From a virus: a stretch of DNA of 36,572 bases. Positions 617-31,647 of this stretch are shown here, piece by piece (position 1 is the first letter of the stretch; every line of letters begins with the position of its first letter). The notes below the pieces were generated by a model that saw only the letters and a list, made by a program, of their open reading frames with translations, was not told the origin of the DNA and searched no databases. The translations under genes were made by a program, and so were the position numbers. The stretch lies in IMG/VR virus record IMGVR_UViG_3300021440_000074, positions 1 through 36,572 of that record; one strand, written 5' to 3'.

Positions 617-729
617 TTCAAGACTTTTTCAAAGCACTGAAAATCGGCTTTCGTGAGTTTCGCACGGCTTGGCGTAACCTCAAGTGGAAGCGCAAGTTTG
701 ATCTGACGGGTAAATTTTCACCTTTTTGA
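613..729 (+). CDS. Very small basic protein, 38 aa
   Basis: The ATG at 613 overlaps the preceding stop, and the frame encodes 38 residues ending at TGA 727-729. The product begins MIQDFFKALKIGFREFRTAW, is rich in Lys/Arg and aromatic residues, and reads as one amphipathic helix. It is the last link in the ATGA chain that starts at base 1; the next gene has its own ribosome site. Function unknown. Support is positional only, so confidence is moderate. Confidence 0.5.
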   Translation: MIQDFFKALKIGFREFRTAWRNLKWKRKFDLTGKFSPF

Positions 730-778
730 ATAGGTTTACCAGCACCTGTTAACGCTGGCATTTATAGGAGTATTTATC

Positions 779-1405
779 ATGGGTTTTGTAGCAACAGATT
801 CTGGCGGCGGCAACTTCAAGCGCGTACCACCCGGCGCATATATTGGGCGCTGCTATTCGTTGGTTGACCTTGGCACGCAGTTGTCAAGTGGTCAATATGG
901 CGAAAAGATGCAGCACAAGATCAAAATTGCTTGGGAGTTGTTCGGAGAGGACGAACAGGGCAACCCGCTTACCGTTGACGTTGACGGCAAGGAAATGCCT
1001 ATGACCATCAGCAAAAGCTATACGGTCAGCCTTCACGAAAAGGCGGGGCTGCGTAAAGACTTGGCGGCATGGCGCGGCAAAGACTTCACGGACGAAGAGG
1101 CTAAGGCGTTTGACGTGTCCAAGCTGATCGGCGCATATTGCATGGTCAACGTCACATCAAATGAAACGAACGGCAAGACATACACCAACGTGGCAGGGCT
1201 TACGCCATTGCCGGGCGCTCTGAAAAACTCCAAGCCAGCAGCAGTCCATGAGCATGTCGTTTTTGACCTTGACGCGCCCGATATGGAAGTATTCAACACC
1301 TTCCATGAAAAGCTGCAAGAGGCCATCAAGAAAAGCCCCGAGTGGGCAGCCCATCAGCGCAAAAACGGCACGGGCTTCGATGACATGGAAGATGCGCCCT
1401 TCTAA
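779..1405 (+). CDS. Putative phage single-stranded DNA-binding protein
   Basis: 208 residues, with TAGGAG about 10 nt before the ATG. The body (residues 1-130) is of mixed beta character with glycine-rich turns, fitting an OB-fold-like protein. The product ends in an acidic tail, DDMEDAPF, matching the D/E-rich, Pro-Phe-terminated tail that SSB proteins use to recruit partners. It is followed after 2 nt by a Gp157-family gene, a common neighbourhood for phage recombination and replication functions. The expected role is coating ssDNA during replication or annealing. The fold is inferred; the tail is seen. It could instead be an unrelated structural-type protein with an acidic end, but the position argues for DNA metabolism. 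Confidence 0.6.
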   Translation: MGFVATDSGGGNFKRVPPGAYIGRCYSLVDLGTQLSSGQYGEKMQHKIKIAWELFGEDEQGNPLTVDVDGKEMPMTISKSYTVSLHEKAGLRKDLAAWRGKDFTDEEAKAFDVSKLIGAYCMVNVTSNETNGKTYTNVAGLTPLPGALKNSKPAAVHEHVVFDLDAPDMEVFNTFHEKLQEAIKKSPEWAAHQRKNGTGFDDMEDAPF

Positions 1406-1407
1406 TC

Positions 1408-1902
1408 ATGACCTCACTCTATCAACTTTCTACCGAGTTGCGTGAGTCATTGGACAATGCCTTCGACCCGGAAACGGGCGAAGCGTTGCCAGTGTTCGAG
1501 GAACTCCGGGCGCTATGGGGCAGCAAAGCCCGTGACGTGGTTAGCTACATGCTGAACACTGAAAGCGATGCGATGCAGTGCAAACTAGCCATTGCACGAA
1601 TCAAAGCCATGCAAGAGGCACACGAGCGCAAAGCCCAGCGCCTGCGTGACTACATCCGCGAAAACATGGCTGCTAGTGGCGTGTTTGAGCTAAAGGCAAC
1701 TGACGGTACGTTTTGCGCGAAGCTGGCACTAGGCCGCGACGAAAGCGTAGAGCTAGACGAAGGCGTGGAGTGGCCGCTAGAGTTGTGCAACGAGCCTAAA
1801 CCGCCACTGCCAAGCAAGACAAAAATCAAGCAAGCAATCGAACGTGGCGAAGCGATTAAAGGCGCTCGCATCGTGCGAAAAGATAGGTTAACAATCAAAT
1901 GA
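1408..1902 (+). CDS. Siphovirus Gp157-family protein
   Basis: 164 residues. The N-terminal two thirds are mostly helical, with a charged stretch around residues 60-90 (MQEAHERKAQRLRDYIRENM). The C-terminal part has the family pattern of a short beta segment with conserved Leu/Asp, then a Pro-Lys-rich stretch and a final KxAIxxGxxxxGARIVRKxxLxIK signature. This fits the Gp157 family (PF05565), first noted in a Streptococcus thermophilus phage, where it was linked to phage resistance in the host. Its mechanism is not established. It sits directly after the SSB-like gene and overlaps the next gene by ATGA. Confidence 0.8.
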   Translation: MTSLYQLSTELRESLDNAFDPETGEALPVFEELRALWGSKARDVVSYMLNTESDAMQCKLAIARIKAMQEAHERKAQRLRDYIRENMAASGVFELKATDGTFCAKLALGRDESVELDEGVEWPLELCNEPKPPLPSKTKIKQAIERGEAIKGARIVRKDRLTIK

Positions 1903-2096
1903 AAATCACACTCTACATGGATGTTTATCCGGGGTTTGCCGCCCAATATGCAAACGCAATCGCAAACCCAACATGGGTGCTGTGCGATGGCCAAAAGCGC
2001 CTTAAATTTACCGTGGACATTCCAGACCACCTAATTCAGCCAGAGCATACGATGGAACTTCCACCAGTAACCGCAACAGAATGGAAGCAAGAATGA
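1899..2096 (+). CDS. Hypothetical protein, 65 aa
   Basis: It starts in an ATGA overlap with the Gp157 gene and ends in another. The product begins MKITLYMDVYPGFAAQYANA and looks like a small beta-rich domain. A later DGQKRLKFTVDIPDH segment resembles a beta-hairpin. No catalytic motif was seen. Similar small proteins beginning with a beta-strand are common in phage early operons; function unknown. Confidence 0.65.
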   Translation: MKITLYMDVYPGFAAQYANAIANPTWVLCDGQKRLKFTVDIPDHLIQPEHTMELPPVTATEWKQE

Positions 2097-2257
2097 AAAA
2101 AAGCATCATCGTGCTAATCGTCGAGCATAAAGACGACGAGGCCATCGTGGACAAAATCGCAAACCGCGTTTGGAATTTGGACGGCGTAGCGCACACCGTA
2201 GAGGCAAAGCTGATTTATCAGGAAAATAAGGGTAAACACCTATCGGATAAGCCTTAG
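2093..2257 (+). CDS. Hypothetical protein, 54 aa
   Basis: The ATG at 2093 lies in an ATGA overlap and the frame runs 54 codons to TAG 2255-2257. The product begins MKKSIIVLIVEHKDDEAIVD, a hydrophobic beta-strand followed by an acidic helix, ending in a lysine-rich tail. The last codons overlap the operator-like motif at 2228-2242, so the 3' end does double duty as control DNA for the next operon. Function unknown. Confidence 0.6.
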   Translation: MKKSIIVLIVEHKDDEAIVDKIANRVWNLDGVAHTVEAKLIYQENKGKHLSDKP

Positions 2258-2270
2258 ACCGTGTTACAGT
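2228..2270 (+). promoter_or_regulatory. Operator-like motif and candidate rightward promoter
   Basis: AAGGGTAAACACCTA (2228-2242) matches the motif at 28219-28233 and, less closely, at 35975-35988. Twenty-two nt on is a -10-like TACAGT (2265-2270) in the context GTGTTACAGT, identical to that of the promoter at 36018-36027. A good -35 is absent at the expected place, so the promoter may need an activator. The first ATG (2296) is 25 nt past the -10. Inference from motif recurrence. Confidence 0.5.
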
Positions 2271-2295
2271 AGAGGCATTAAAAGGAGTAATTGAA

Positions 2296-2712
2296 ATGAA
2301 AACCTATACAGCAGCAGAATTTGAGATTGAGTTTTACCGCGCCATGCATGAGTGGGCGAAAGGCGGCAAAAAGGGTGTTGATCCGCGCGAGAATTGGCAA
2401 AAGCATGTTTACTTGAGGTGGGTGGGTGACGATAGAACCCCATGCTTCTCTTTCGGAGAATACCGCTGGAAACCCGCCAAAAAGCGCACAGTCATCATCG
2501 ACGGCGTGGAGCTTGTTGTGCCTGAGACGGTTGCGCCGAAGGTTGGTGAGCGTTACTTTATAAGAGACTCCTATCCAAGTTCAGTAATGCTCTGGAAAGG
2601 GTGTGCTATGGAGATTTTGTGGCTGGGAGATGGACACATTTTCCTCACCGCCGAAGACGCTAACGCAATGGACGAAGCGCAGCGCAAACAGAGACTTGGG
2701 AGTGCAGCATGA
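2296..2712 (+). CDS. Hypothetical protein, 138 aa, first gene of an operon
   Basis: It has a strong AAAGGAG ribosome site, inside a 27-nt block nearly identical to the one before the gene that starts at 28111. The product begins MKTYTAAEFEIEFYRAMHEW. A middle beta section (VIIDGVELVVPETVAPKVGE) is followed by a C-terminal WLGDGHIFLTAEDANAMDEA segment. I recall that last pattern at the end of several accessory phage proteins, as if it were a shared module. It is coupled by ATGA to the next gene. Function unknown. Confidence 0.7.
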   Translation: MKTYTAAEFEIEFYRAMHEWAKGGKKGVDPRENWQKHVYLRWVGDDRTPCFSFGEYRWKPAKKRTVIIDGVELVVPETVAPKVGERYFIRDSYPSSVMLWKGCAMEILWLGDGHIFLTAEDANAMDEAQRKQRLGSAA

Positions 2713-2939
2713 GCGAAAAAGAAACAGGCGGGCCAGCGTTTCCCGTTCCACTTAATCCCGGCCAAGGCTGGCAGGGCATGTCGCCGTGTGACGGCATGAC
2801 CCTGCGCGACTATTTTGCGGCGAAGGCCATGCAAGGGTTGTTGGCAAATCAGCACCCATATCAAGCCAGCGACGAACATTTGTTTGCCCGTGCCGCTTAT
2901 GTGTTGGCAGACGCAATGCTGAAAGCGAGGGAAGCATGA
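2709..2939 (+). CDS. Small phage protein with GMTLRDYFAAKAMQ motif
   Basis: 76 residues, starting in an ATGA overlap. The core reads CDGMTLRDYFAAKAMQGLLA, then a helical end, AAYVLADAMLKAREA. This pattern (Gly-Pro-Ala-Phe-Pro near the start, then MTLRDYFAxKAMQ) recurs in many temperate and lytic phages of proteobacteria as a conserved hypothetical. It is soluble with no catalytic motif. Family recognition is from memory; function unknown. Confidence 0.75.
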   Translation: MSEKETGGPAFPVPLNPGQGWQGMSPCDGMTLRDYFAAKAMQGLLANQHPYQASDEHLFARAAYVLADAMLKAREA

Positions 2940-3112
2940 CCAAAACCCAATACATCGCGCACCTGCGCAGCCTTGGGCTTTGCAAGGATATGGCTGAGTG
3001 CATGGCGGGGCAGACTGCTTCACACCTAAGAATCCGTTACTACACAGCTAGAGGTGCTGTAATGTCTTTCGCAGTTTGCCCGCATCAATCATTGGAGGCC
3101 CGCTGTGCGTGA
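2936..3112 (+). CDS. Hypothetical protein, 58 aa
   Basis: It starts in an ATGA overlap with the 76-aa gene and ends 8 nt inside the next gene. The product begins MTKTQYIAHLRSLGLCKDMA, a basic helical start with two cysteines nearby (residues 16 and 22). The C-terminal part carries the ribosome site (TTGGAGG) of the ASCH-like gene, so the reading frame may owe some of its extent to that. No family recognised. Confidence 0.5.
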   Translation: MTKTQYIAHLRSLGLCKDMAECMAGQTASHLRIRYYTARGAVMSFAVCPHQSLEARCA

Positions 3113-3662
3113 AAAGCCAATTTTGTTTTCCGCCTCGATGGTTCGCGCCATATTGGACGGCAGCAAGACGCAGACGCGGCGGGTCTGCAAGCTCGAAATG
3201 CGCGGTGGGATGCCAGAGCCTGAGATGTCATCATTGCTCAAGTGCTGCCCCTACGGCCAGCTAGGCGACCAGCTTTGGGTGAAAGAAACCCACTGGGTTG
3301 ATGATGAAGACGGGTCGGTTTTGTATGCGGCCAATCCAGACGATTGGAATTTCGTTGAGCAGAACAAACACGAAACTGGATCGTCGCGTTACAACTGGAA
3401 GCCATCCATCTTCATGCCCCGCAAGCATTCGCGCATCACGCTTGAAATAACTGGCGTGCGCGTCGAGCGGTTGCAGGACATCAGCGAAACCGACGCACGA
3501 GCCGAGGGCTATCCCGCCGTGAACTTCAATCCAGCAAGGAACCAAGAGCACGATCAGGCACGTTACTGGTATCGCCTGTTATGGGAGCAGATCAACGGCC
3601 CCGGCTCATGGGAGGCAAACCCTTGGGTGTGGGCGATTGAATTTGGAAGAGTAACGGAATGA
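3105..3662 (+). CDS. ASCH/PUA-like phage protein
   Basis: 185 residues from a GTG start with GGAGG 8 nt upstream. The order is KPILFSASMVRAILDGSKTQTRR at residues 4-26, GDQLWVKETHW near 55, FMPRKHSRITLEITGVRVERLQDIS near 103, and a C-terminal NPWVWAIEF. These are the landmarks of a phage family with an ASCH-like (PUA-fold) core: the Lys-Thr-x-Thr-Arg-Arg stretch, a WVxE strand and a terminal VxEF strand. ASCH domains are expected to bind RNA or modified nucleotides. Some homologues carry a morphogenetic-protein label that I doubt. It overlaps the next gene by ATGA. Family sure, activity not. Confidence 0.75.
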   Translation: MREKPILFSASMVRAILDGSKTQTRRVCKLEMRGGMPEPEMSSLLKCCPYGQLGDQLWVKETHWVDDEDGSVLYAANPDDWNFVEQNKHETGSSRYNWKPSIFMPRKHSRITLEITGVRVERLQDISETDARAEGYPAVNFNPARNQEHDQARYWYRLLWEQINGPGSWEANPWVWAIEFGRVTE

Positions 3663-4258
3663 ACCACATTGAAGCAATGAAACAGGCGCTTGAGGCGCTT
3701 GAGAATGCGGAAGATCTTATTGAGCATCAATACACAGGAACAAGAGAAGCAATGTCCTACCTGCAAAACACGGCGGACGATGCGCAAGAGGCATTAACCG
3801 CCCTTCGCGCCGCCGTCGAGCAGGCAGAGAAGCAGGCGCAAATTGGTACGCTATCAATCTGGGTATACAAGGGACTCGTAAACTACGACTTCAGCTACAC
3901 GGGCAATCTGCCCGATGGTGATTACAAGGTCTACACCCACCCCGCACCAGCACAGCCAGTGCAGGAGCCCCACCCAGCCTGCAAGTCTGACATGCTGGTA
4001 AATAGTGGCGCTTTGAATCTTGCTCTAAACAGTTTGCGTCGAGGAACGCAGTCGCAAAAAGAAATTGCTGACGAACTGGAAAGGACAGCACAGCCAGCAC
4101 TCAAGCCGCTGAGTGATGCGCCGCTACACCTGCTGAATTTGGTGAAAGCGCTCGAAAGCGCATTTATCTCAACATGGCAATCGACGGCAGGCTGGCAAAA
4201 AGAACTTGACGCGGCCAGCGAATACCTCACGGCCCACGGCATCAAGGGGCAAGCATGA
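3659..4258 (+). CDS. Helical phage protein of unknown function, 199 aa
   Basis: It starts in an ATGA overlap. The N-terminus, MNHIEAMKQALEALENAEDL, is a helical repeat of small and acidic residues, followed by an ALTALRAAVEQAEKQAQ helix. The centre holds a Pro-rich linker (THPAPAQPVQEPHP) and the C-terminus is helical again. The MKQALEALE...ALRxAI layout is very common in accessory phage proteins and behaves like a mosaic module. No enzyme motif. Function unknown. Confidence 0.7.
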   Translation: MNHIEAMKQALEALENAEDLIEHQYTGTREAMSYLQNTADDAQEALTALRAAVEQAEKQAQIGTLSIWVYKGLVNYDFSYTGNLPDGDYKVYTHPAPAQPVQEPHPACKSDMLVNSGALNLALNSLRRGTQSQKEIADELERTAQPALKPLSDAPLHLLNLVKALESAFISTWQSTAGWQKELDAASEYLTAHGIKGQA

Positions 4259-4410
4259 GTAACTTCGGTTTTTGGTACGCCATTGCATTGTGTTGTATTG
4301 CTGGTGTTGCCCTTGAGTTCGGACAACAAGCGTCTGCTGCAATATTCTTAAGCTCAGTTTTTGTCATATGTGTTAACGAAATTTGCCATGCAATCAAGGA
4401 GAAAGCATGA
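4255..4410 (+). CDS. Small two-segment membrane protein, 51 aa
   Basis: It starts and ends in ATGA overlaps. The product begins MSNFGFWYAIALCCIAGVAL and then AAIFLSSVFVICV. That gives two hydrophobic stretches (about residues 5-21 and 27-40) with a short polar turn between them and a charged end (EICHAIKEKA), so a helical hairpin in the inner membrane is plausible. It lies far from the lysis genes, so I do not call it a holin. Function unknown. Confidence 0.6.
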   Translation: MSNFGFWYAIALCCIAGVALEFGQQASAAIFLSSVFVICVNEICHAIKEKA

Positions 4411-4907
4411 GCACGCCACCTAAACTGACGGATGAGCAGATTCTTGATGCTTTTTGCACCACTCCAAACATCAACCAGTTTGTCTCGGCATTTACAGCGG
4501 GCGCTCGCTTTACAGAAGCCGCCCGCGATGACCAATGGATCGAACACATCAAGTCAAATGGCTGGCGGCAATGCGCCGAAGGCCAAGGCGTGAGTCAGTT
4601 CTGCCCGCAGGCCGAGGAAATGGAGAAGAAGCTGCAAGCGCTTGAGGCGCAGCGGGATGAGTTGCTATCAGCACATGAGGCTTGCAAAGCCGCGAACACA
4701 ATTCTCATTCAAGACTGTGCTGCAACTTGCAAAGCGCAAGCCAGCGAACCAGCACCTAAGCGTGAGTGGGTTGGGTTGAGTGATGCAGACCGACAAGCTG
4801 CATTTGAATCAATGCCGGAAATGCTTGAAGGTTTTTTGAAAACATGGGGATGGCTCCATTTTTGCAAAGCTATCGAATCAAAACTCAAGGAACTGAATCA
4901 TGACTGA
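4407..4907 (+). CDS. Hypothetical protein with coiled-coil centre, 166 aa
   Basis: I start it at ATG 4407, not 4383: AAGGAG lies at the right distance and the start overlaps the upstream stop by ATGA. The N-terminus has TDEQILDAF, then a segment around residues 70-110 with heptad-like charged helices (AEEMEKKLQALEAQRDELLS). The C-terminus carries WVGLSDADRQAAFESMPEML. The LTDEQI... and WVGLxDxDR modules appear in many accessory phage proteins. Function unknown. Confidence 0.7.
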   Translation: MSTPPKLTDEQILDAFCTTPNINQFVSAFTAGARFTEAARDDQWIEHIKSNGWRQCAEGQGVSQFCPQAEEMEKKLQALEAQRDELLSAHEACKAANTILIQDCAATCKAQASEPAPKREWVGLSDADRQAAFESMPEMLEGFLKTWGWLHFCKAIESKLKELNHD

Positions 4908-5133
4908 ACAAATCTGCCAGCCAAACGGCTTGATGTTTGACAGGCTTGGGAACCCACGCAAGCGTTATGTGCGTATCAGTTTTGATGGCGCTAGCTGCGT
5001 ATTTAAGCCATCTGACGCCGATGCATTTTTGCGCATTCACGAAGAGGACGGTGAGGATATGAATTACACGACAGAAGACGTTTATCTGAGTCAGCAAGAG
5101 TTTGAAACACTTGTTGAGTTCACTGGATTTTGA
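4900..5133 (+). CDS. Hypothetical protein, 77 aa
   Basis: It begins MTEQICQPNGLMFDRLGNPR, with AAGGAA and a 16-bp stretch ending in the ATG (AAGGAACTGAATCATG) that is repeated exactly before the next small frame. It is acidic with two short beta-rich parts (KRYVRISFDGASCVFKPSD and TEDVYLSQQEFETLVEFTGF). It shares the pattern of an acidic helix then a YLSxxxFExxVE end with the gene at 35296-35478, suggesting distant paralogy. Function unknown. Confidence 0.65.
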   Translation: MTEQICQPNGLMFDRLGNPRKRYVRISFDGASCVFKPSDADAFLRIHEEDGEDMNYTTEDVYLSQQEFETLVEFTGF

Positions 5134-5145
5134 AGGAACTGAATC

Positions 5146-5193
5146 ATGGCAAATAAACACCACGATCATTTTATTCAGATGAATGGCACATGA
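5146..5193 (+). CDS. 15-codon leader frame before the PAPS-reductase gene
   Basis: ATG 5146 follows a copy of AAGGAACTGAATC at 5133-5145 and reads MANKHHDHFIQMNGT, then stops at 5191-5193. The next gene's ATG at 5190 overlaps that stop. The 254-aa gene has no good ribosome site of its own just upstream, so translation may be delivered by this short frame (coupling). The peptide itself need not have a function. It holds three histidines. Not proven; it could simply be a relocated ribosome site. Confidence 0.4.
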   Translation: MANKHHDHFIQMNGT

Positions 5194-5954
5194 TGGAACA
5201 TCTAATTTTTGCAAGCTACGGCAACGACTCGATTGCGCTGATTCAGTGGGCGCACGAGCGAAACTTGCCAGACGTTCATGTGGCGTACACCGACACCGGC
5301 TGGGCCGCTGACTGGTGGCCCAGCCGCGTTGCCCAGGCTGAGGCATGGGTGCTCTCGATTGGCTTTGTGCCACACCGCATAACCAGCGAGGGCATGGAAG
5401 CGCTAGTAGCCCGCAAAAAAGCGTGGCCGCGCGGCGGTGGCGGCAAATTCCAGTTTTGCACCGAGGCGCTGAAGAAGGAACCGGCCCGCGCGTGGTTGGC
5501 GCTGCATGACCCGGAAGGCGAAACGACGTGCCTGACCGGCGTGCGCCGCGAGGAAAGCGAGAACCGCCGCGATGCCCCCGAGCATGTGATTGCCAGTGAA
5601 CAACACGGTGGCCGCGAACTGTGGCAGCCGCTGGTGCGGCACACAGAGGCAGAGCGTGATGCGCTTGTGCTGAAAACACCTATTCCACTACTGCCATTTC
5701 GCTCGAAGGAATGCTACCCGTGTGTTAACGCGCGAAAGTCAGAATTGAGGATGTTGGACGGCGAAGCCCGTGACCGTGTTTATACGATTGAGGCGCGATC
5801 CGGTATCAACAGCAAAGGAAATGCCCGCGTTATGTTTAGCCCTTCACGACACGGCGGCGCAGTTGGTATTGATGCGGTGATTGAGGATGCAAAACACAAC
5901 ATAGACGACCTATTCCTAACTTCTGGCTGCTCAAGTGGATGGTGCGGTGGGTAG
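5190..5954 (+). CDS. PAPS reductase / adenine nucleotide alpha-hydrolase family protein
   Basis: 254 residues with a PP-loop-type start, SYGNDSIAL at 9-17, in place of the usual SGGKDS. It also has YTDTGW at 33-38, KFQFCTEALKK at 86-96 (Cys90), GVRREESENRR at 117-127, a CYPC pair (Cys175 and Cys178) and a C-terminal Cys247...Cys252. This is the layout of PF01507-type enzymes that activate substrates through ATP, with cysteines that may hold a metal or Fe-S cluster. In phages, relatives are discussed as sulfur auxiliary genes or nucleic-acid modifiers; the substrate is unknown here. No DndB, DndD or DndE gene lies nearby, so phosphorothioation is not supported. Confidence 0.8.
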   Translation: MMEHLIFASYGNDSIALIQWAHERNLPDVHVAYTDTGWAADWWPSRVAQAEAWVLSIGFVPHRITSEGMEALVARKKAWPRGGGGKFQFCTEALKKEPARAWLALHDPEGETTCLTGVRREESENRRDAPEHVIASEQHGGRELWQPLVRHTEAERDALVLKTPIPLLPFRSKECYPCVNARKSELRMLDGEARDRVYTIEARSGINSKGNARVMFSPSRHGGAVGIDAVIEDAKHNIDDLFLTSGCSSGWCGG

Positions 5955-5989
5955 AAGCAGTGCGCAACTTATACATAAAAGGATGAATC

Positions 5990-6172
5990 ATGGATAAAGA
6001 CGTTGGAATCGTGTTGGTCACTTTAGGTGCAGTGGCAATGTTGGCTATGGTGTGGACGGTTAGCTGGGCTAACGCGAAAGGAACTATTTCGACAGAGTGC
6101 CAGAAGCACGGCGCTTTCTATGTTGGCGAGAAAGTATTTGAGTGCAAGATCAGGGAGAAAAGCAATGGATAA
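5990..6172 (+). CDS. Small membrane-anchored protein, 60 aa
   Basis: It has AAAAGGA 7 nt before ATG 5990. Residues 6-28 (GIVLVTLGAVAMLAMVWTVSWA) form a single membrane segment, followed by a short polar tail with two cysteines (STECQKHGAFYVGEKVFECK) that could pair in the periplasm. The layout is an N-terminal anchor with a small exported Cys-containing domain. It overlaps the next gene by 8 nt. Such proteins are frequent in phage early regions, sometimes for superinfection exclusion; no direct evidence here. Confidence 0.65.
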   Translation: MDKDVGIVLVTLGAVAMLAMVWTVSWANAKGTISTECQKHGAFYVGEKVFECKIREKSNG

Positions 6173-6572
6173 AGACAAAGTGATTGAACTGGCGAAGCGG
6201 GCAGATTTGATTTTCGAAGAACCTCATTGCGATATGCCGTCGTTGCAGCGTTATTTGTTGGCACTTGAAGCCTTCGCCCAACTCGTGCGAGACGACTACC
6301 GCGCAGAGCTTCTTGCGGGGAGTGGGGAGCCTGTTGGTTATCTCGCATGGCGTGATGGCAAACCTTCGTGGGACGAAGACTGCGTTTGCAAAGACCCGGT
6401 TTATCCGGTCGATGAGACAGACGATAGAACGTCAAAGCCCATCTACACCGCCGAACAACTCGCAGCCGCCGTGCTGCGGGAACGGAATACATGCTTGGAA
6501 ATTGCAGATCAATTTGCTGACGCAGATCTGTACGCGTCAATGGTTTCAAACGCCATACGCGCAAGGAAATAA
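6165..6572 (+). CDS. Hypothetical protein, 135 aa
   Basis: I start it at ATG 6165 (MDKDKVIELAKRADLIFE), which has GGGAG 9 nt upstream; a longer frame from 6027 lies inside the previous gene and has no site. The N-terminal half is helical, the middle has GEPVGYLAWRDGKPSW, and the end (IYTAEQLAAAVLRERNTCLE then ADQFADAD) is a helical module that I recall at the C-terminus of many phage accessory proteins. Function unknown. It is the last gene before a structured gap. Confidence 0.7.
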   Translation: MDKDKVIELAKRADLIFEEPHCDMPSLQRYLLALEAFAQLVRDDYRAELLAGSGEPVGYLAWRDGKPSWDEDCVCKDPVYPVDETDDRTSKPIYTAEQLAAAVLRERNTCLEIADQFADADLYASMVSNAIRARK

Positions 6573-6580
6573 CTTTTTTC

Positions 6581-6695
6581 GCTAGGCGGCAACTGCGGTC
6601 ACTTTCGCTATGGGCGGCATAGCCATATGTCGTTACCTTTCCATAACATCCCATAGGATTGGGTTTCCAGTGCTTTAGTGGGCAAGCCGCCTAGC
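6581..6695. ncRNA. Candidate structured RNA or inverted-repeat element
   Basis: The gap 6573-6717 contains a perfect 10-bp inverted repeat, GCTAGGCGGC (6581-6590) and GCCGCCTAGC (6686-6695). It encloses a 6-bp hairpin, GCTATG/CATAGC, with a 5-nt loop (6607-6623). A run of six T precedes the left arm at 6574-6579, so on the minus strand the closing stem is followed by six A and does not look like a terminator. No open frame spans it. A folded RNA, an mRNA processing site or a small transposable relic would all fit. Confidence 0.4.
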
Positions 6696-6717
6696 ACCTA
6701 ACAATTGGAGTAACTAT

Positions 6718-6912
6718 ATGTCAAGAACTTACGCAGACGAACGAGGCGAGATTGCTTATAAAGCATACCAAAAAGCCGCATTGCAATTTGATGATGAAGG
6801 GCTTGCAGGACATGCGCTTGCGTGGCAAGACCTGCCAGAGAGCGACCGTGAATGCTGGATTGCAGCAGCAGAAGCTGTGCATCAAAATGCACTTTTGGGC
6901 GCTTTCCTGTGA
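6718..6912 (+). CDS. Hypothetical helical protein, 64 aa
   Basis: It starts after GGAG with good spacing. The product begins MSRTYADERGEIAYKAYQKA and continues with a WQDLPESDRECWIAAAEAVH helix; the xWxxLPExxRxxWxxAA pattern is typical of small phage proteins. It ends in TGATG, giving coupled translation into the next frame, which carries a related W-x-x-F/L-x-x-x-x-K/R pattern. Perhaps the two are a duplicated pair. Function unknown. Confidence 0.65.
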   Translation: MSRTYADERGEIAYKAYQKAALQFDDEGLAGHALAWQDLPESDRECWIAAAEAVHQNALLGAFL

Positions 6913-7091
6913 TGACTGCCACACCGCAGGATTGGGACGCGCCAGAATGGGCGAACGCATACTGCGTCCACGAATGGAAAAACTATATCTCCACGGAAGT
7001 GCAGCAAATTTGGCACTCATTCACAGACTATCAAAAGAAGGCGATTGCGCGACAAGCCGAAGAAAACGCGGAACGCGAAGAATGGGATTGA
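6912..7091 (+). CDS. Hypothetical protein, 59 aa
   Basis: I start it at ATG 6912 in the TGATG overlap; a longer frame from 6852 is inside the previous gene. The product begins MTATPQDWDAPEWANAYCVH and ends in an acidic basic-mixed helix (YQKKAIARQAEENAEREEWD). It is the last plus-strand gene of the right arm; a hairpin at 7103-7129 follows. Function unknown. Confidence 0.6.
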   Translation: MTATPQDWDAPEWANAYCVHEWKNYISTEVQQIWHSFTDYQKKAIARQAEENAEREEWD

Positions 7092-7100
7092 TGCAATAAA

Positions 7101-7129
7101 AAATCCCCCAGCCTTTGCAGGAGGGGGAT
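7101..7129 (-). terminator. Rho-independent terminator of the late leftward operon
   Basis: ATCCCCC (7103-7109) pairs with GGGGGAT (7123-7129). On the minus strand the stem is followed by TTTTTTATT, so it terminates transcription coming from the late genes. On the plus strand it has no U run, but the hairpin could still slow the rightward operon that ends 12 nt before it. It lies between converging genes, as expected. Confidence 0.8.
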
Positions 7130-7188
7130 AAGGGTTTAGCGAATGAAGGACACCAAACCAAGGAGACAGCATGAGCTGCGACCTGATT

Positions 7189-7602
7189 CTAACGCGAAAC
7201 ACCCTTAGATTTTTCAACCGTGCGCAAACTTCCAATGCCCAATATGCCAGTGAGAATCACCCACAGCGCCTCCGTGTCTAACATTGGTGGCGGCGTAAGG
7301 CCAGCGGGAACGTAGCCACCAGCCTGCAATACCGCCCATGCCCATACCAACATGGGGTAAAGGATGAACTGATACGCCATCGCCGCAACACCGCACCACC
7401 CCACGGCTGGCCTCCATCCCGCTACGAAAATGCTAGCGTGTTTGGCTTCCTCTTGGTTGACATTGATCTGGCCTTGCTGCAAATCGGCTTCAATTTTGCG
7501 CTGCTCTAAGGCTTGCCGCCCGCGCTCTTCGTCTGACGTAAACAAATCGTCAGCCACCTTGCCAACGGCATCAATTACGCCGCCCAAGCCTAAGATATTC
7601 AT
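7189..7602 (-). CDS. Holin, GTA_holin_3TM-like
   Basis: 137 residues from ATG 7602, which overlaps the endolysin stop (ATGA) and has AAGGGG upstream. A longer frame to 7632 is rejected. The order is MNILGLGGVIDAVGKVADDL, a charged helical stretch (EERGRQALEQRKIEADLQQ), FVAGWRPAVGWCG near residues 60-72, then two or three membrane segments (AAMAYQFILYPMLVWAWAV and LWVILTGILGIGSL). The RPxxGW motif and layout match the 3TM holin family PF11351. Its role is to open the inner membrane so that the endolysin can escape. Confidence 0.85.
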   Translation of the reverse strand: MNILGLGGVIDAVGKVADDLFTSDEERGRQALEQRKIEADLQQGQINVNQEEAKHASIFVAGWRPAVGWCGVAAMAYQFILYPMLVWAWAVLQAGGYVPAGLTPPPMLDTEALWVILTGILGIGSLRTVEKSKGVSR

Positions 7603-8102
7603 GCCAGCCCCTTGAATGTACGGTTTAACCACCCGCGAATGAATTTGACTTGCACAGGGTCACGGTTGCAAATATCGAGGTATCGCTTAATCTTGGCCAG
7701 CGCGTACAGTTGTTTGAACGTCTGTTCGTCAGCATCGCGCAAAGCCGCCATTGTCTTGTCGCCAAACACGCCATCAGGCGTTTGGTTAACGACGATTTGA
7801 GCGAGTTTTTTAGCTACGCTAGTCCCTGCGTTAACCCCGAAGTCAAAAATTGATTCTGCGATGGTTTGTGGCAGTTCATCGCCCCTTACAGCGTCCCAAT
7901 ACAGCGGTTTGTAGAAGGCCCGGACTAGCGATGCGTCTGGCAGTTGCCCAGCGTCAATAGCGTGCCACCCTTGCCACTGCGGGTTTTTGTTTCGTGCGAT
8001 GCCTGCGTAGGTTTGCCCGCCCGTGTCGCCCGAGACTTTGTGCAGCACGTAGCCGCCTTCTGATTTAATCGTTTTCTCAAACGCCTCAAGAAAATCAGCC
8101 AT
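7599..8102 (-). CDS. Endolysin, GH108-type N-acetylmuramidase
   Basis: 167 residues, started at ATG 8102 with GAGG 8 nt before it; a TTG two codons upstream is less likely. The N-terminus has EAFEKTIKSEGGYVLHK with the family's E-G-G-Y signature (Glu15 the likely catalytic acid), then GDTGGQTYAGIARNKNPQW. The C-terminal half has a VVNQTPDGVFGDKTMAAL peptidoglycan-binding-like repeat. This matches PF05838 followed by PF09374. It cuts the peptidoglycan glycan strand. No signal peptide was seen, so it should depend on the holin encoded next to it. Confidence 0.9.
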   Translation of the reverse strand: MADFLEAFEKTIKSEGGYVLHKVSGDTGGQTYAGIARNKNPQWQGWHAIDAGQLPDASLVRAFYKPLYWDAVRGDELPQTIAESIFDFGVNAGTSVAKKLAQIVVNQTPDGVFGDKTMAALRDADEQTFKQLYALAKIKRYLDICNRDPVQVKFIRGWLNRTFKGLA

Positions 8103-8104
8103 GC

Positions 8105-8251
8105 TCAATCCTCGAAACCGTTATAGATAAGAACAAACACAACCAGCAAGGCCATGAGCGTACCAAACGCCATGAACCAAAGGGTTGTGTAAATCAACCT
8201 AGCAGAATCAGCCAGAAAATCCACGGTAGTAGAAGCTACATTACTTGTCAT
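8105..8251 (-). CDS. Single-pass membrane protein of the lysis cassette, 48 aa
   Basis: The frame starts at ATG 8251, overlapping the 3' end of the upstream gene by 11 nt, and stops at 8105-8107, two nt before the endolysin ATG. It begins MTSNVASTTVDFLADSARLI and has one membrane segment (TLWFMAFGTLMALLVVFVLI). Position between a coiled-coil membrane protein and the endolysin suggests a lysis accessory protein, perhaps a second holin or antiholin. No family recognised. Confidence 0.6.
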   Translation of the reverse strand: MTSNVASTTVDFLADSARLIYTTLWFMAFGTLMALLVVFVLIYNGFED

Positions 8252-8459
8252 TTTCTATTTTCGTTTCCACGCGGACAATGCGTTTGTCAAGACCGTTGAT
8301 TCTCTCGTGGAGTTCGCCCGCTACTTCGTTCAGCGTTTCCACCATCTGATCTAGCTTCGTGACCACACGAGAGCCAATCCATCCGACGATAGCCGCCAAA
8401 AGGCCGAATAGCGTAGCAACAAGAGCCGCCGCGATTGTGAGTAGTTGCGTTTCGTTCAT
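8241..8459 (-). CDS. Membrane-anchored coiled-coil protein, 72 aa
   Basis: It starts at ATG 8459 with AAAAGG upstream. Residues 5-30 are one membrane segment (LLTIAAALVATLFGLLAAIV), followed by a charged heptad-rich helix (LDQMVETLNEVAGELHERIN) ending in RIVRVETKIENDK. The layout of an N-terminal anchor and a soluble coiled coil resembles phage lysis accessory proteins (Rz-like or class II holin-like), and it heads the lysis cassette. Role inferred from context. Confidence 0.65.
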   Translation of the reverse strand: MNETQLLTIAAALVATLFGLLAAIVGWIGSRVVTKLDQMVETLNEVAGELHERINGLDKRIVRVETKIENDK

Positions 8460-8469
8460 TGCTGCCTTT

Positions 8470-9039
8470 TCAAGTCCAAGAAATAACTACAGAGCCGTTT
8501 GCGCCGTTAGTACCTGCCGCAGCGCCGCCTTGTCCCGCTGTGCCTAAGCCACCACCACCGACGACGACTGTAATAGATGACCCAACGGTGAGGCCACCAA
8601 CAGTGTAGGTTTTGATGGCCTTGCCGCCGCCACCGCCACCGCCGCCAGTGAAGGAGCCAGCACCGCCCGTACCACCGACCGAGAAGTTTGCGCCACCAGC
8701 ACCCCCAGTAGAGCCGTCAACGCCGTTCGAGCCAGATGTATTGGTGTCGCCGCCAGATGCTGACCCGCCGGGGCCGAAAGAGCCATGCGTAGACACACTC
8801 GCATCTGCTCCATTACCTCCAAAACCGCCACCACCGGAAACCGTTGAATTGAAGGTAGAAGCAGACCCGGTTCCTGCCTGAACTGCGCCAGAGGTATTAC
8901 TACCGCCGCCGCCGCCACCAGCACCACCAATAGCGGTTGCGGTCAGTGTAGTGTATGAAGGTACGACAAAAGAATACGTCCCCGGTGTCAAATAAGACAT
9001 AGAACCGGGGCCACCGCCAAGAATAGTTGGTACAAACAT
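8470..9039 (-). CDS. Glycine-rich tail tip / receptor-binding adhesin
   Basis: 189 residues with poly-Gly tracts of up to eight residues separated by short Ser/Thr/Asn stretches. The order is an N-terminal PGTYSFVVPSYTTLTATAIG strand pair, the Gly-rich body (about 37-140), then AIKTYTVGGLTVGSSITVVV and a final NGANGSVVISWT. Gly-rich sandwiches of this kind form the variable tips of phage adhesins (as in the S16 gp38 type) and are often seen next to tail fibres. It follows the fibre gene by 1 nt. Receptor unknown; an exact repeat count is not informative without alignment. Confidence 0.7.
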   Translation of the reverse strand: MFVPTILGGGPGSMSYLTPGTYSFVVPSYTTLTATAIGGAGGGGGGSNTSGAVQAGTGSASTFNSTVSGGGGFGGNGADASVSTHGSFGPGGSASGGDTNTSGSNGVDGSTGGAGGANFSVGGTGGAGSFTGGGGGGGGKAIKTYTVGGLTVGSSITVVVGGGGLGTAGQGGAAAGTNGANGSVVISWT

Positions 9040-13777: not shown

Positions 13778-14461
13778 TTATTTGCCTCCTCCTGATTGGG
13801 TTGTTGTTGATGTTGACCCAAGGTTGGAGCCAAACACACCACTCATTGCCGCCAATTGCTTGTAAGGCAGGTTTTGCGCGTCTTGGTATTGCTGATAGCC
13901 AAAATCCAAACCTTGCTGCGCTTGGTCTTGTTGCAGTTGACCGGCTTTGAGCAATTGCCCCGCGTCTGTGTACGCTTGATTGCCGTAGTTTTGAGCCATG
14001 CCCAACGCACTGAGTTTGTTCGCCTGGTCTGTGTTGTAGGCGTTTCCGTACATCGTTGACGCGGTATCACCCAAGCCTTTAGCCAGTTGCTCTTGTAAAC
14101 CAGCGTTACCGAATGAGCCACTGCCCATCGTTGCGTTGTTGTAGTTGCCAACGACGTTTTGCTGCGCCTTGTTCACCATTGAATCAAGGTAAGGGTTAGT
14201 GCCGCCGCCCATCAAACCCATAAGAGTCTCGTTGGCTTGCGTCATTACGGGAGACCCACCAGCCGCACGGTCTTGAATAGCTTGAATGCCAAGGTCTTGC
14301 GTGCTGTTAAGGTCTGCAAACCGTTGGTTTGTATATGGCGTAAAGCCTTGGCCTGATAAGCCAATTGCTTTTTGCGCATACGTCGAAGCCAACGGCTTCA
14401 ATTCGTCAGGGATTGATTGCACTGTAGTGGATGTACCACCGCCGCCACCGCCACCGCTCAT
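13778..14461 (-). CDS. Gln/Gly-rich virion protein, likely ejection protein
   Basis: 227 residues from ATG 14461, which sits in an ATGA overlap and has GGAGG upstream; the upstream in-frame stretch to 14560 is rejected. It starts MSGGGGGGGTSTTVQS, then IPDELKPLASTYAQKAIGLS, a middle with NPYLDSMVNKAQQNVVGNYN, and a Gln-rich helical end (GQLQQDQAQQGLDFGYQQYQ). Low-complexity, glycine-led proteins of this layout recur beside the ejection genes of podoviruses. Enzymatic role unlikely. Confidence 0.65.
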   Translation of the reverse strand: MSGGGGGGGTSTTVQSIPDELKPLASTYAQKAIGLSGQGFTPYTNQRFADLNSTQDLGIQAIQDRAAGGSPVMTQANETLMGLMGGGTNPYLDSMVNKAQQNVVGNYNNATMGSGSFGNAGLQEQLAKGLGDTASTMYGNAYNTDQANKLSALGMAQNYGNQAYTDAGQLLKAGQLQQDQAQQGLDFGYQQYQDAQNLPYKQLAAMSGVFGSNLGSTSTTTQSGGGK

Positions 14462-14865
14462 AGTGACACCTCCAAAGTTTCGTAAATAGGGGTAAACCCG
14501 CACTTCATGCGGTACAGACGCGCCTGCGCGGGTTTTGCAGCGCAACGAATACGAGAGCATCCGAAGGCTTTAGCAAGGGTTTTTAGCTCTGTAAAAAATT
14601 GTTCAAACTGCGCCCCAGTTGCAGACATTTCGCAAATGTGCAGGACGCGAAGGTTAGGCAGTTGGTCAACGCGAATAACACCCCATCCAACGGGACTATC
14701 CTCAACGTCCATACGGACAAGCGTTCTCTCACCACGAGACAAAATCAACTTGAGTTGGTCTGCTGTAATCTCCCCGCCGGACGCTGCGCAAGCATCAGCA
14801 AGACACGAAGCGCCTTCGCTCCATGCTTGGTCGATATGCATCGATGGTACGAGGATGAGTTTCAT
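14458..14865 (-). CDS. GNAT-like virion-operon protein
   Basis: 135 residues from ATG 14865 (TGATG overlap with the previous stop). It is beta-alpha alternating: TLVRMDVEDSPVGWGVIRVD, LRVLHICEMSATG, FFTELKTLAKAFGCSRIRC, and a RLYRMKCGFTPIYETLEV end. The last stretch resembles the final strands of the GNAT acetyltransferase fold (xxxY-x-x-x-GFxxxxxxLxV). T7 gp13, an internal virion protein, is also said to have a GNAT-like fold, so a structural or assembly role is possible. The usual Q/RxxGxG/A acetyl-CoA loop is not clear, so activity is doubtful. Confidence 0.6.
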   Translation of the reverse strand: MKLILVPSMHIDQAWSEGASCLADACAASGGEITADQLKLILSRGERTLVRMDVEDSPVGWGVIRVDQLPNLRVLHICEMSATGAQFEQFFTELKTLAKAFGCSRIRCAAKPAQARLYRMKCGFTPIYETLEVSL

Positions 14866-15155
14866 CAATTACCCGTCAAAAACCTACATTGCAGCCACGT
14901 TCCGGGTGTACCGCCTACTGTGCAAATCCAGCCAAACACCACGTATTTGCTGAGTGCAACACCGAGTTCAGCAGGGGCATTGTTGCGCACAAAATCACCC
15001 TGCTTAAACGTGCCTGTCGTTGGTACGGATTGTGCGCTCTGGTAAAGCGCCGCGATGCTGCCTTCACTCAGCGCGTTGACCTGCGCCGCTACTTCGCGCA
15101 TCCATTTCGCGGCCTCTGCATCTACGTTCGTCCGAGGGGATGTGCTGATCTTCAT
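14865..15155 (-). CDS. Small virion-operon protein, 96 aa
   Basis: It starts in an ATGA overlap with the gp10-like gene and ends in TGATG. It begins MKISTSPRTNVDAEAAKWMR, followed by a helix, then GDFVRNNAPAELGVALSKYV and a C-terminal WICTVGGTPGTWLQCRFLTG. The GDxVRNxxPxExG...KYVxxGWxCxxGGTPGTxxxxRxLTG pattern recurs at the ends of phage fibre-like and virion proteins as a compact beta domain. Probably a small tail or head-tail accessory protein. Confidence 0.65.
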   Translation of the reverse strand: MKISTSPRTNVDAEAAKWMREVAAQVNALSEGSIAALYQSAQSVPTTGTFKQGDFVRNNAPAELGVALSKYVVFGWICTVGGTPGTWLQCRFLTGN

Positions 15156-16051
15156 ACGTCACCCTCTTGGATTAGATTCATGCCGATGCCTGTAAGTGTG
15201 TGGTCGCCCGTAAAGGTGAAGTCACAGCGATGCCAGCGGCCAGAATCGAGCACGTCAAACTTGCCATCAGCCATAGTTGCAGCAGAACCAGCCGTTTCAG
15301 TTTCGCCAAGCTCTGCGGAGTGGTATGTTTCGATTGTTGCCACCGTAGGCTTGCGGGAGAATCTGCACCGCACTTTATCCATGAGCGTGTAAATATCGTC
15401 ATCTCCCACATACCATGCCTGCGCTGCACTCGTGCCCGCAGCGCCTGTGAGCAGTTGCAACTGGTGCGACGTGTTGAACAAGCCAAGAGACTGACCACCA
15501 GCCACCCAATAAGGTGAGTCAAACGGATAGTTTGGCAACCCATCGATCGTGGCTGATATTGTTGCGAGGTCATGAATCGTCATGCCCGCAGAGATGTAGT
15601 TCAGCACCGCCTCGCAAGGGATTGCCGCCGTGCCCCATTGCTTTGTCCCAACGTGGTAAACCAGCGCATGGTCTGGGCTTGTTGCGCTTGTGCTAGGGTA
15701 GAAAATCCAAACCCTGTTTGTCTTGCGATCAAAGATGCATTGTGTGCGGTAACGTGTGGCTGGGTTTGAGTTGGAAAAGAACCAATTCCTCACCATGCCA
15801 ACACCCAAAGGCGAAGGGCGCGAGCCGTCAAATAGCCAAAAATTATCCTTGCCCACAATGAAGTGAGCGCCGCCAATGTCGCACCAAGCATCTTGGCCAA
15901 TGCACCCAGCATCGCCGCCCGTGACTTGCTGCCAATCCCACACAACGCCTGTGCCTGTGTATTGGCCTAGGTAAATGGCTTTTTCTTTGTACGCCACTGC
16001 GTAATCACCCAATCTACCGCCAGCGGTAAGTCGTCCCTGCGTACTGACCAA
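15152..16051 (-). CDS. C-terminal part of the gp10-like protein (after an in-frame TGA)
   Basis: This frame continues the 16088-16600 frame without a shift; only a TGA (16088-16090) separates them. The nearest possible restart is TTG 16051, with no clear ribosome site. It reads GRLGDYAVAYKEKAIYLGQY, VVWDWQQVTGGDAGCIGQDA, then a repeated strand pattern (GGAHFIVGKDNFWLFDGSRP) typical of beta-propeller or P22 gp10-like packaged-DNA stabilisation proteins. The layout follows the SU10/P22-type adaptor gene, exactly where gp10 is expected. Whether it is made depends on readthrough, restart or a sequence error at the TGA. Confidence 0.7.
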   Translation of the reverse strand: MVSTQGRLTAGGRLGDYAVAYKEKAIYLGQYTGTGVVWDWQQVTGGDAGCIGQDAWCDIGGAHFIVGKDNFWLFDGSRPSPLGVGMVRNWFFSNSNPATRYRTQCIFDRKTNRVWIFYPSTSATSPDHALVYHVGTKQWGTAAIPCEAVLNYISAGMTIHDLATISATIDGLPNYPFDSPYWVAGGQSLGLFNTSHQLQLLTGAAGTSAAQAWYVGDDDIYTLMDKVRCRFSRKPTVATIETYHSAELGETETAGSAATMADGKFDVLDSGRWHRCDFTFTGDHTLTGIGMNLIQEGDV

Positions 16052-16087
16052 TCGGCCTGTATTCGCCTGCGTAGTGACGGTGGTTGT

Positions 16088-16600
16088 TCAGCCTGTCTCG
16101 TTGTAAAGCGCAGAGCACCACCACCTGTCGGGCGATGTACCATACGTGCCATCAACCGTATTGAGCGCCATCACGAAGCCGCCCACGGTGAAAACAATTT
16201 TTGCTTTAGGGGCAGTAGCAATTGCAGCGAATGCGCCCGAGGCAGAGCGTTGAATGGTATCGGATAGATTCGCAGCGATTGACGCATCACCAAACTGGCA
16301 AAAGCTCCATCGGGTGTCAGAGCCGCCCGTATAGGAACCAGCAGAAACATCAGTCCACGCACCGCCTGATAGCTCGTACAGCTTTGTAGTTGTTCCGGCA
16401 AAAACCCTGCGGGAGTCGTCCAGCTTTACAGCCACCGCAGCGCCAACACATGCAGCGGCCAGCGCGGGCGTACTTGCAGGGGTGATGCCAGTAGGCGCAC
16501 CAACGACCCCCACGTCAGCGGGGATGATGTTTTCACATGCAAGCAGGGCACCGGGCGTTGTTGGGTCTGCGTCCGGGGCAAAGCCAATCACTTTATCCAT
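16088..16600 (-). CDS. N-terminal part of the gp10-like protein, ending at an in-frame TGA
   Basis: 170 residues from ATG 16600 (TAATG overlap with the adaptor gene). It begins MDKVIGFAPDADPTTPGALL and carries the family's DDSRRVFAGTTTKLYELSGG strand pair. It ends at SPDRWWCSALYNETG followed by TGA. From remembered relatives, the segment should continue W-T-P-x-x-x-T-Q; here it is TGA then TTTVTTQ. The gene plus the downstream frame gives 482 codons including the TGA, close to P22 gp10 in length. Role inferred: sealing packaged DNA at the portal/tail junction. Confidence 0.7.
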   Translation of the reverse strand: MDKVIGFAPDADPTTPGALLACENIIPADVGVVGAPTGITPASTPALAAACVGAAVAVKLDDSRRVFAGTTTKLYELSGGAWTDVSAGSYTGGSDTRWSFCQFGDASIAANLSDTIQRSASGAFAAIATAPKAKIVFTVGGFVMALNTVDGTYGTSPDRWWCSALYNETG

Positions 16601-17187
16601 TATCGCGCCTTGATTTGTAGTGAGCCGATAGAGGGTTGCCCGCGCCGTTCAATGAAGCGTTTCACCGCGTCAAGCGCATCGCTCACCATAGGCGTAAGCC
16701 CTTGCACCATCATCGCGTTGCGGGTGTACTTTGCCCCCTCAAGGCATGAGGCGTAAAGATACAAGTCGGGAGCGTTTTCCAGCAGCCAATTGGTCGTGTT
16801 TGCGTCGCTCAGAGCCGTTAGTTTTGGCGTGTAGTACAGAGTTACCACCGTTCCAGTTGAAGCGCCTGCAATGCGGATTTGGCCATTCTCAAAGGCATAT
16901 TTCGTGGGCGTTGTTTGCCCCGTGTATGTCTCTGGCTCGTTTTGGTAGTCAAGCGCATAGGCCACGCCCTGATATGTCGCCGTGATTTTGTTCAGCGAAA
17001 GGAAGTCAACAGGCAAATCAGCGTATTCGCCCGTAGTGGTCAAGTCCGTGGATAGCTGCGAATCTTTGATGTTCAGCTCACGAAACAGATACGCCTCTGC
17101 GATGCTGATAAACGTGGGTACTTGCGCCGCCAAGTCTGTGCGATGCAGGTAGCTTGCCACCTGTGTTTTGAGTTCGCCGTAAATCAT
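16600..17187 (-). CDS. Head-tail adaptor (P22 gp4 / SU10-type)
   Basis: 195 residues from ATG 17187 in an ATGA overlap. The N-terminus, MIYGELKTQVASYLHRTDLA, is a helix. It is followed by VPTFISIAEAYLFRELNIKD, a beta segment (DYQNEPETYTGQTTPTKYAF), LYYTPKLTALSDANTTNWLL and a C-terminal helix (AVKRFIERRGQPSIGSLQI). The helix / beta / helix order and place between the capsid and the gp10-like gene fit the adaptor that joins the portal to the tail in P22 (gp4) and in SU10-type phages. Confidence 0.75.
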   Translation of the reverse strand: MIYGELKTQVASYLHRTDLAAQVPTFISIAEAYLFRELNIKDSQLSTDLTTTGEYADLPVDFLSLNKITATYQGVAYALDYQNEPETYTGQTTPTKYAFENGQIRIAGASTGTVVTLYYTPKLTALSDANTTNWLLENAPDLYLYASCLEGAKYTRNAMMVQGLTPMVSDALDAVKRFIERRGQPSIGSLQIKAR

Positions 17188-29054: not shown

Positions 29055-29350
29055 GCTATATGGCTCCATGTTTCGCACTGCGCTATCTTTTCGATAGTTC
29101 GCACATGCACGTTAAATTGCTTTGCAAGCGCATCATTGCTCAGGTTGTCTCGGATGTACTGACGCAACCTGTCACGCTGTCTTACGGCGCTTTTGATCGT
29201 CACAACGTCCAAATCTAGCAGCTTTGCTTGCGGTAGCTCTTGCCCACGCGGAGCAAGCTCTCTGGCGCGTTGCTGCCACTCATCGCGGGGCATTACGCCT
29301 TCGCGCCGCTCTCGGTGGCCTATGTGCTGTGCGTATTTGGTTATTGCCAT
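29051..29350 (-). CDS. HTH protein between helicase-methylase and resolvase
   Basis: 99 residues starting in a TAATG overlap with the helicase-methyltransferase gene and ending in an ATGA with RuvC. The N-terminus is basic (MAITKYAQHIGHRERREGVM). The C-terminal third reads DNLSNDALAKQFNVHVRTIE followed by KIAQ, a clear helix-turn-helix of the sigma/transposase type. Coupling to both neighbours suggests a DNA-targeting partner. No metal or enzyme motif. Confidence 0.7.
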   Translation of the reverse strand: MAITKYAQHIGHRERREGVMPRDEWQQRARELAPRGQELPQAKLLDLDVVTIKSAVRQRDRLRQYIRDNLSNDALAKQFNVHVRTIEKIAQCETWSHIA

Positions 29351-31647
29351 TATGCGGCCTCTGCGAATAGGTCATTTTGATTGTCGCTTTTGCTTGCTTC
29401 GTCAAGATTGCGACAAGCAATATCAAAATAAGACTTTTTCAGCTCAGCCCCAACGAATCGGCGTTTGCTTTTCAGACTGATGTACCCCTCAGACCCAATA
29501 CCCGCAAACGGCGAAAACACCAAGTCGCCGGGGTTGCTCCACAGCTCTACGCAGCGTTCAATCACGTCAAGTTGAAGCGGGCAAATATGGCGCTCTTCGT
29601 CTTTTTCCTTTGCCAATTTGTAGTTCAGCACGTCCGTCTGGTCAATATCAAACCACACGGGCGATGCGTACCGCTGCCAAACAGAGATCGAATACAAGCG
29701 CGTCTTTTCCTCTTCGCTTCGTGCGCGGCCCCAGTCTTTTGATTGTGGCGCGTTATAGCTGCTGCCAACGTAATCAAAGAATCGCTCACCGCCACGGGTC
29801 ACAGCGTCCCATTTATCCTCGTCTGCCCATTTACGCATAACGATGATGTAATCAGCCATGCCTTGACGCGATGCGCTCGAATCTTTGCAAAGTTGCTTGT
29901 AAAGCAACCCGTGGTTTTTGGTGCGCTGCATCTCGATTACAGGGTCTTTCCAGATCGTGACGCGGCTATGATACTGCCACCCCTTTGACTCGTACATCTT
30001 GATAATTTCGCCGGGAAAATCGCGCAAGCCCGCAGCGCCGTCACGCCCTTTGTACATGGGCAAGTCTTTGCAGTGGATTGCAGTCAGCCTCCCAGGTTTT
30101 GTAATCCGGTGAAGCTCTTCGGCCAAGTACGAGTAATGGCGCATAAACTTCCCATCGTCCGTACTGTTGCCCATGTCATATTCGGAATCGCTGTAAATGT
30201 AAAGATTGGAAAACGGCGGGCTATAGACGCTAAAACCAATTGAATCAGCCTCGATCATTCGTGCAACGTGAACACAATCGCCATGATGCAACGTCCAATC
30301 TTTGCCTTGTTTTGTCTCAAAATATGGCGTGTCGTTCATCTCTGACTCCTTTTTGTAGGCAATGGAAATTGCCTTGACCATCTCTGATTTCATGACGTTG
30401 TGTTTGGCCTCTTTTTCCTGAATGATGCTCAGAATTGAACGCTCAGAATCAGCGGCCATTACGTAACAATTAACCTCTTGTTTTTGGCCGAATCGGTAGC
30501 AGCGCCGAATGGCTTGGTAGTAGTCTTCGTAGCTATACGAAAGACCAACAAATGCCATGTTTCGGCAGTGTTGCAGATTCAAGCCCATCCCCGCGATGCT
30601 TGGCTTCGTGATCAGGACGCGGATTGACCCATCAATAAAACCGTCAAGACTCTTTTCTTTTTTGTCGATTGAATCAGATCCTCTCAAGTCAACCGCATCA
30701 GGAATAAGCCCCTTCAACGAATCAGCCTCATAGTTTGTATTGCACCAAACTAACCACGGTTCATCGCTTGCATTCACCAACTTTGCAACCTCAGCGGCAC
30801 GACGGCCAATGGTCAATCGCCCCTCTTTGTGTACGCTTGTCGCGTTGATTGTGACGGTGCGAAAAAGCTCACCCTCCGATGGTGGCAAACCATCAGTAGA
30901 AACTTCAACGAACTGTTGACGCAATGCAGGAAGGATGTACGCCGTGCCGTCATAGCCCAAGTCGGCAGGGTTTGACAGGCACACGCTCCACGTTGCGCAC
31001 CATTCCCAAAACTTGCCCGCTGCGTGCGGGCGAAGTACGTATGCGCCAGCTTCCATCGTATCGTTTTGGAAAAAACGCATAATCATCTCGTTGCTTGGCA
31101 TGATGCCCAAAAATGCGGCATGGTTGCCAAGCTCCAAGTAATCGTTAGGGCTTGGCGTGGCTGTACAGGCCAGCCGATATGGGACATTCTCACAAGCTGT
31201 AATCAACGCTTGCTTGGTTTTGCCCATGTAGCTTTTCAGGATTGAGCTTTCATCCAACACTACGCCAACGAATGTAGAAACGTCGAATTTATCAAGCATT
31301 TCGTAATTCGTGATGATGATGTTTTGCGTTACCTCTGACTGAGCGCGGCAGTATTGAATATCAATGCCAAATTTTTGAGCCTCATTCACGGTTTGATGCG
31401 CAACGCATAGCGGGGCAACAATCAGCACCTTCCCCGAAGTGTGTCGCCGCACCTGCTCTGCCCATGCTGTTTGCATTGCCGTCTTGCCAAGGCCTGTATC
31501 CGCAAATATCGCAGCACGCCCTTTCTTGCAAGCCCACGTCACAATCTCACGCTGGAAGTCGAACAACTTTTCATTGATTTGAGAAGGCTCAAACCCAAAC
31601 CAGTCGTTTTTCTCTCGCTTCGATTCAATAAAATCCGTGTATTCCAT
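29350..31647 (-). CDS. SF2 helicase fused to a DNA methyltransferase
   Basis: 765 residues. The N-terminal helicase has Walker A ADTGLGKT at 49-56, a DESS (DEAH-box variant) at 132-135, TATP at 162-165 and QAIRRCYRFGQ (motif VI) at 378-388. The methyltransferase begins near 437; SPPF at 476-479 is the (D/N/S)PPY/F catalytic motif, and FSPFAGIGSEG at 711-721 is the S-adenosylmethionine loop. Motif IV before I marks a beta-type N4/N6 enzyme. Helicase plus methylase in one chain recalls phage P1 DarB. Role inferred: protecting phage DNA from host restriction, or chromatin-like remodelling of incoming DNA. No specificity domain or nuclease is seen. Confidence 0.85.
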   Translation of the reverse strand: MEYTDFIESKREKNDWFGFEPSQINEKLFDFQREIVTWACKKGRAAIFADTGLGKTAMQTAWAEQVRRHTSGKVLIVAPLCVAHQTVNEAQKFGIDIQYCRAQSEVTQNIIITNYEMLDKFDVSTFVGVVLDESSILKSYMGKTKQALITACENVPYRLACTATPSPNDYLELGNHAAFLGIMPSNEMIMRFFQNDTMEAGAYVLRPHAAGKFWEWCATWSVCLSNPADLGYDGTAYILPALRQQFVEVSTDGLPPSEGELFRTVTINATSVHKEGRLTIGRRAAEVAKLVNASDEPWLVWCNTNYEADSLKGLIPDAVDLRGSDSIDKKEKSLDGFIDGSIRVLITKPSIAGMGLNLQHCRNMAFVGLSYSYEDYYQAIRRCYRFGQKQEVNCYVMAADSERSILSIIQEKEAKHNVMKSEMVKAISIAYKKESEMNDTPYFETKQGKDWTLHHGDCVHVARMIEADSIGFSVYSPPFSNLYIYSDSEYDMGNSTDDGKFMRHYSYLAEELHRITKPGRLTAIHCKDLPMYKGRDGAAGLRDFPGEIIKMYESKGWQYHSRVTIWKDPVIEMQRTKNHGLLYKQLCKDSSASRQGMADYIIVMRKWADEDKWDAVTRGGERFFDYVGSSYNAPQSKDWGRARSEEEKTRLYSISVWQRYASPVWFDIDQTDVLNYKLAKEKDEERHICPLQLDVIERCVELWSNPGDLVFSPFAGIGSEGYISLKSKRRFVGAELKKSYFDIACRNLDEASKSDNQNDLFAEAA
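30337..30352 (-). promoter_or_regulatory. Internal ribosome site for a methyltransferase-only product
   Basis: Inside the 765-aa frame, AAGGAGT (30352-30346) precedes in-frame ATG 30339 (codon 437) with a 6-nt spacer. A start here gives a 329-aa protein that begins MNDTPYFETKQGKDW and contains both methyltransferase motifs but no helicase. In the long frame the same bases encode KKESEM. Confidence 0.55.

Follow-up and report, generated by a model that had tools for sequence, protein, structure and literature searches.

An in-frame TGA at an invariant tryptophan position in the tail nozzle gene of an uncultured phage

The interrupted gene and its identity

The DNA examined here, hereafter the window, is an IMG/VR virus record of 36,572 bases from an uncultured virus known from one contig. 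Its minus-strand frame 16600-15152 comprises 482 codons with a single internal stop, a TGA at 16088-16090 that follows GGC and precedes ACA, just as a preliminary description of the sequence had it. The locus contains the following features:

15152..16600, minus strand: nozzle gene (gp10-like, packaged-DNA stabilisation), 482 codons interrupted once; its match to phrog_3287 spans the stop
16088..16090, minus strand: in-frame TGA at an invariant Trp position (residue 171), located by comparison with relatives
16091..16600, minus strand: upstream part, 170 codons from an ATG, matching phrog_3287 profile positions 38-184; the product if UGA terminates
15155..16087, minus strand: downstream part, an open frame of 311 codons matching phrog_3287 profile positions 196-514, changing at the pace of its relatives and lacking a good restart site
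16600..17187, minus strand: upstream neighbour, a 195-aa virion structural protein (phrog_2941), intact
14865..15155, minus strand: downstream neighbour, overlapping the true stop of the nozzle gene (ATGA), intact

Several lines of evidence bear on what this gene encodes. Translated through the stop, the gene gives a protein whose match to phrog_3287, a virion structural protein family of the head and packaging class, runs across the stop and covers profile positions 39-514 (E 2.4e-58); each half alone matches its own part of that profile. A 29-sequence profile searched against the PDB found 9nwi_Y (E 9.2e-34) and 8zkk_O, “nozzle gp16” (E 8.7e-32). The AlphaFold2 model of the protein has a pLDDT of 87.4, and the best 28 Foldseek matches to it are all phage tails. 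Aligned over the whole length, the model resembles tail chains of Pa223 (9nwi_Y, TM 0.85) and VP1 (8zkk_O, 0.82), as well as P22 gp10 (8eap_D, 0.61), so the predicted fold is one that the Pa223, VP1, and P22 nozzles have in common with this gene product from end to end. By profile and predicted structure, then, the gene product is a podovirus tail nozzle with the P22 gp10/Pa223/VP1 fold, which bears out the gp10-like identity proposed earlier.

The nozzles of T7 and SU10 are hexamers built around a seven-bladed beta-propeller, and the T7 nozzle retains packaged DNA (PMC6702177; PMC9509320). In the AlphaFold2 model, residue 171 is part of a stretch, mostly beta-strand, that extends ~100 residues beyond it. 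Since the residue sits inside this long stretch, termination at 171 would be expected to leave an incomplete propeller.

Conservation of the tryptophan and the state of the phage

Relatives of the nozzle gene consistently have tryptophan where the window has TGA. In a first set of relatives, the codon at the site is TGG in 37/37, and it is also TGG in closer relatives found via the major capsid protein, which have ≤70% nozzle identity. In a 53-sequence alignment reaching down to 27-29% identity, the residue is W in 52/52, and the window departs from the 29 near-invariant columns at one only, the Trp. Our widest set has TGG in 112 of the 113 distinct segments that cover the site; in the single exception (L087), the Trp occupies the next column, and a one-residue insertion lies alongside. 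No stops were found within the nozzle frames of relatives (119 distinct segments, 52,660 aa), so the internal TGA is a feature of this phage's nozzle gene and of none of the relatives examined. The preliminary description had placed the TGA at a Trp position and attributed it to a single-base change from TGG, and the alignments uphold both statements. The local pattern that it gave, (D)-W-T-P-x-x-x-T-Q, is correct only in part, as the T-Q end is not conserved; the relatives read (D/N)-(E/Q)-T-x-W-T-P-S/N-V. Residue 173 of this pattern is Pro in nearly all relatives and Thr in the window. Near-identical copies were also sought in a viral collection with two DNA patterns, and none was found, which is not evidence of their absence. 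Among the relatives, one nozzle gene (L169:2250-2960) carries an in-frame insertion of ~237 aa after nozzle residue 83, and this insertion resembles phage tail-protein modules (phrog_5939, E 4e-49).

How long could the stop have been there? Measured on trees, the window stands no farther from several outgroups than its sister phages do, whether the codons before the stop or those after it are compared, and relaxed selection over the 311 codons past the stop is not seen in this comparison. Since these codons have kept their constraint, the sequences suggest one of three things: a very recent change, an error, or a continuing need for the full-length protein. The P173T change is a slight hint that constraint around the site may have been relaxed for some time, though it is a single site. 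As for why a tryptophan codon was hit, 48 transition-to-stop changes are possible in the nozzle gene and 30 of them fall in TGG codons, which makes a Trp place the likeliest random target. It is thus not surprising that a one-step nonsense change landed on a Trp codon.

No second lesion was found in the other genes that can be compared with relatives; for the left arm (1-8400), relatives suited to comparison are few. The comparison finds portal, terminase, scaffold, major capsid protein, and tail genes all intact. Further stops suggested by the damage scan proved on inspection by eye to be alignments overrunning gene starts or ends. Among the relatives, late genes show no internal lesions in ~91,000 aa, the six listed stops lying at gene ends. 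A decayed prophage would be expected to have several broken genes, and we found no further one wherever relatives are comparable. Relatives are present, apparently as prophages, in Variovorax and Polaromonas genomes, where they lie on large contigs.

Other parts of the window merit brief description. The contig starts with a 21-base tandem repeat (1-168) and ends with a 27-base tandem repeat (36442-36549) inside a DUF7666 gene; given these repeats at both ends, the assembly probably broke at them and the contig is probably incomplete. GC-rich CCGCCGCCACC-type repeats at 8624-8651, 8903-8930, and 14439-14466 are common to two regions of minus-strand late genes. A 765-aa protein (29350-31647, minus strand) joins, in one frame, a DEAD/SNF2-type helicase in its N-terminal half and an N6/N4 DNA methylase in its C-terminal part. 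A PAPS reductase-domain gene (PF01507; 5190-5954, plus strand) matches the phage family phrog_424 at positions 161-350 only, out of 460.

Explanations for the internal stop

One reading, for which the open frames kept in both halves speak, makes the locus two genes, with an N-terminal protein of 170 aa and a second of 299 aa starting from TTG 16051. However, this TTG, the earliest in-frame start beyond the stop, has no evident upstream ribosome-binding site (CAGGCGAATACAGGCCGA), so we see no plausible site for a restart. A protein beginning there would also omit residues 172-183, and the cut would fall within the propeller. Homologues divided into two separate genes, which the preliminary description had named as the observation that would count against it, are ruled out, since the gene is single and unbroken wherever a relative covers the site. 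We regard the chance that these are two genes as very slight. Slighter still is the chance that TGA means Trp throughout the phage (code 4). The TGA does occupy a Trp place, as in code-4 recoded phages, but those phages are recoded throughout (PMC11210395), whereas here a single codon is affected and TGA serves regularly as a stop. The 26 complete genes end in TGA (13) or TAA (13), and 110 TGG codons stand against one in-frame TGA. The window also has no suppressor tRNA, a criterion to be read with the caveat that such a tRNA is absent from some code-4 members. These counts bear out the preliminary description, which had excluded a genome-wide change of code.

Another reading is programmed or tolerated readthrough. 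Here a host tRNA-Trp would insert Trp at the UGA, and leakage would meet the low need for nozzle protein, six copies per virion. Of the bacterial stops, UGA leaks most, with Trp as the favoured residue (PMC11126739), leakage at UGA is ~12% in E. coli (PMC9481147), and nozzles are hexamers (PMC6702177). There is also a precedent in coliphage Qbeta, whose A1 minor coat protein is likewise produced by low-level misincorporation of Trp at a leaky UGA (PMC6526423). In Qbeta, however, the short product is the coat protein itself, whereas here it would be an incomplete propeller: the greater part of the nozzle fold is encoded beyond the stop, and the 170-aa product has no evident use. Leakage in two species of Pseudomonas is only 0.04-0.08% (PMC9481147). 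The region 3' of the stop shows no unusual folding that would indicate a stimulating RNA structure (z 0.41 and 0.07), and the window encodes no tRNA gene. Programmed readthrough would be marked by a conserved stop, and no relative has one, TGG standing at the site in all but one of the 113 segments; it thus has no positive support. In bacteria, UGA readthrough is reported to increase with a tRNA-Trp whose anticodon stem is short (PMC13092985), and such a tRNA could be a trait of the host here. On balance, we consider programmed or tolerated readthrough improbable.

The best explanation, which we hold to be very probably correct, is an isolated, very recent TGG-to-TGA substitution at the invariant nozzle Trp, present either as a real nonsense allele or as a consensus/base-call error. 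The sequences show the stop, the invariance of the Trp, and the lack of any other lesion in comparable genes; the recency of the change, the loss of function, and any leakage are what we infer. Between its two forms the chances are about even. A consensus sequencing or assembly error in a phage that truly has TGG, taken alone, falls a little short of an even chance. It is favoured by the nature of the record, a single contig from an uncultured virus, and by the intact and conserved remainder of the nozzle gene, but an error of this kind would have no bearing on the neighbouring P173T change. With a real nonsense allele, translation would mostly end after 170 residues, partway through the beta-propeller, and no nozzle would form. 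Leaky decoding of UGA by the host tRNA-Trp would then yield a little full-length protein carrying the original Trp, and whether this amount suffices would depend on the host. As this leak would restore the exact ancestral protein, limited viability may be possible in a leaky host.

Implications for phage tail genes

The stop is almost certainly no new way of reading the genetic code. It does call for caution in annotation, as gene callers can be expected to report two short proteins for what is one nozzle gene. A bolder idea is that the UGA in place of an invariant nozzle Trp is a stable feature of a dsDNA phage, which obtains the six subunits of each virion solely by leaky Trp insertion; we think this even less probable than readthrough in general, but if it were true, virion yield would depend on the UGA leakiness of the host. 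If the stop is real and fixed, the phage would be a natural experiment on the smallest supply of an essential tail protein with which a phage can survive.
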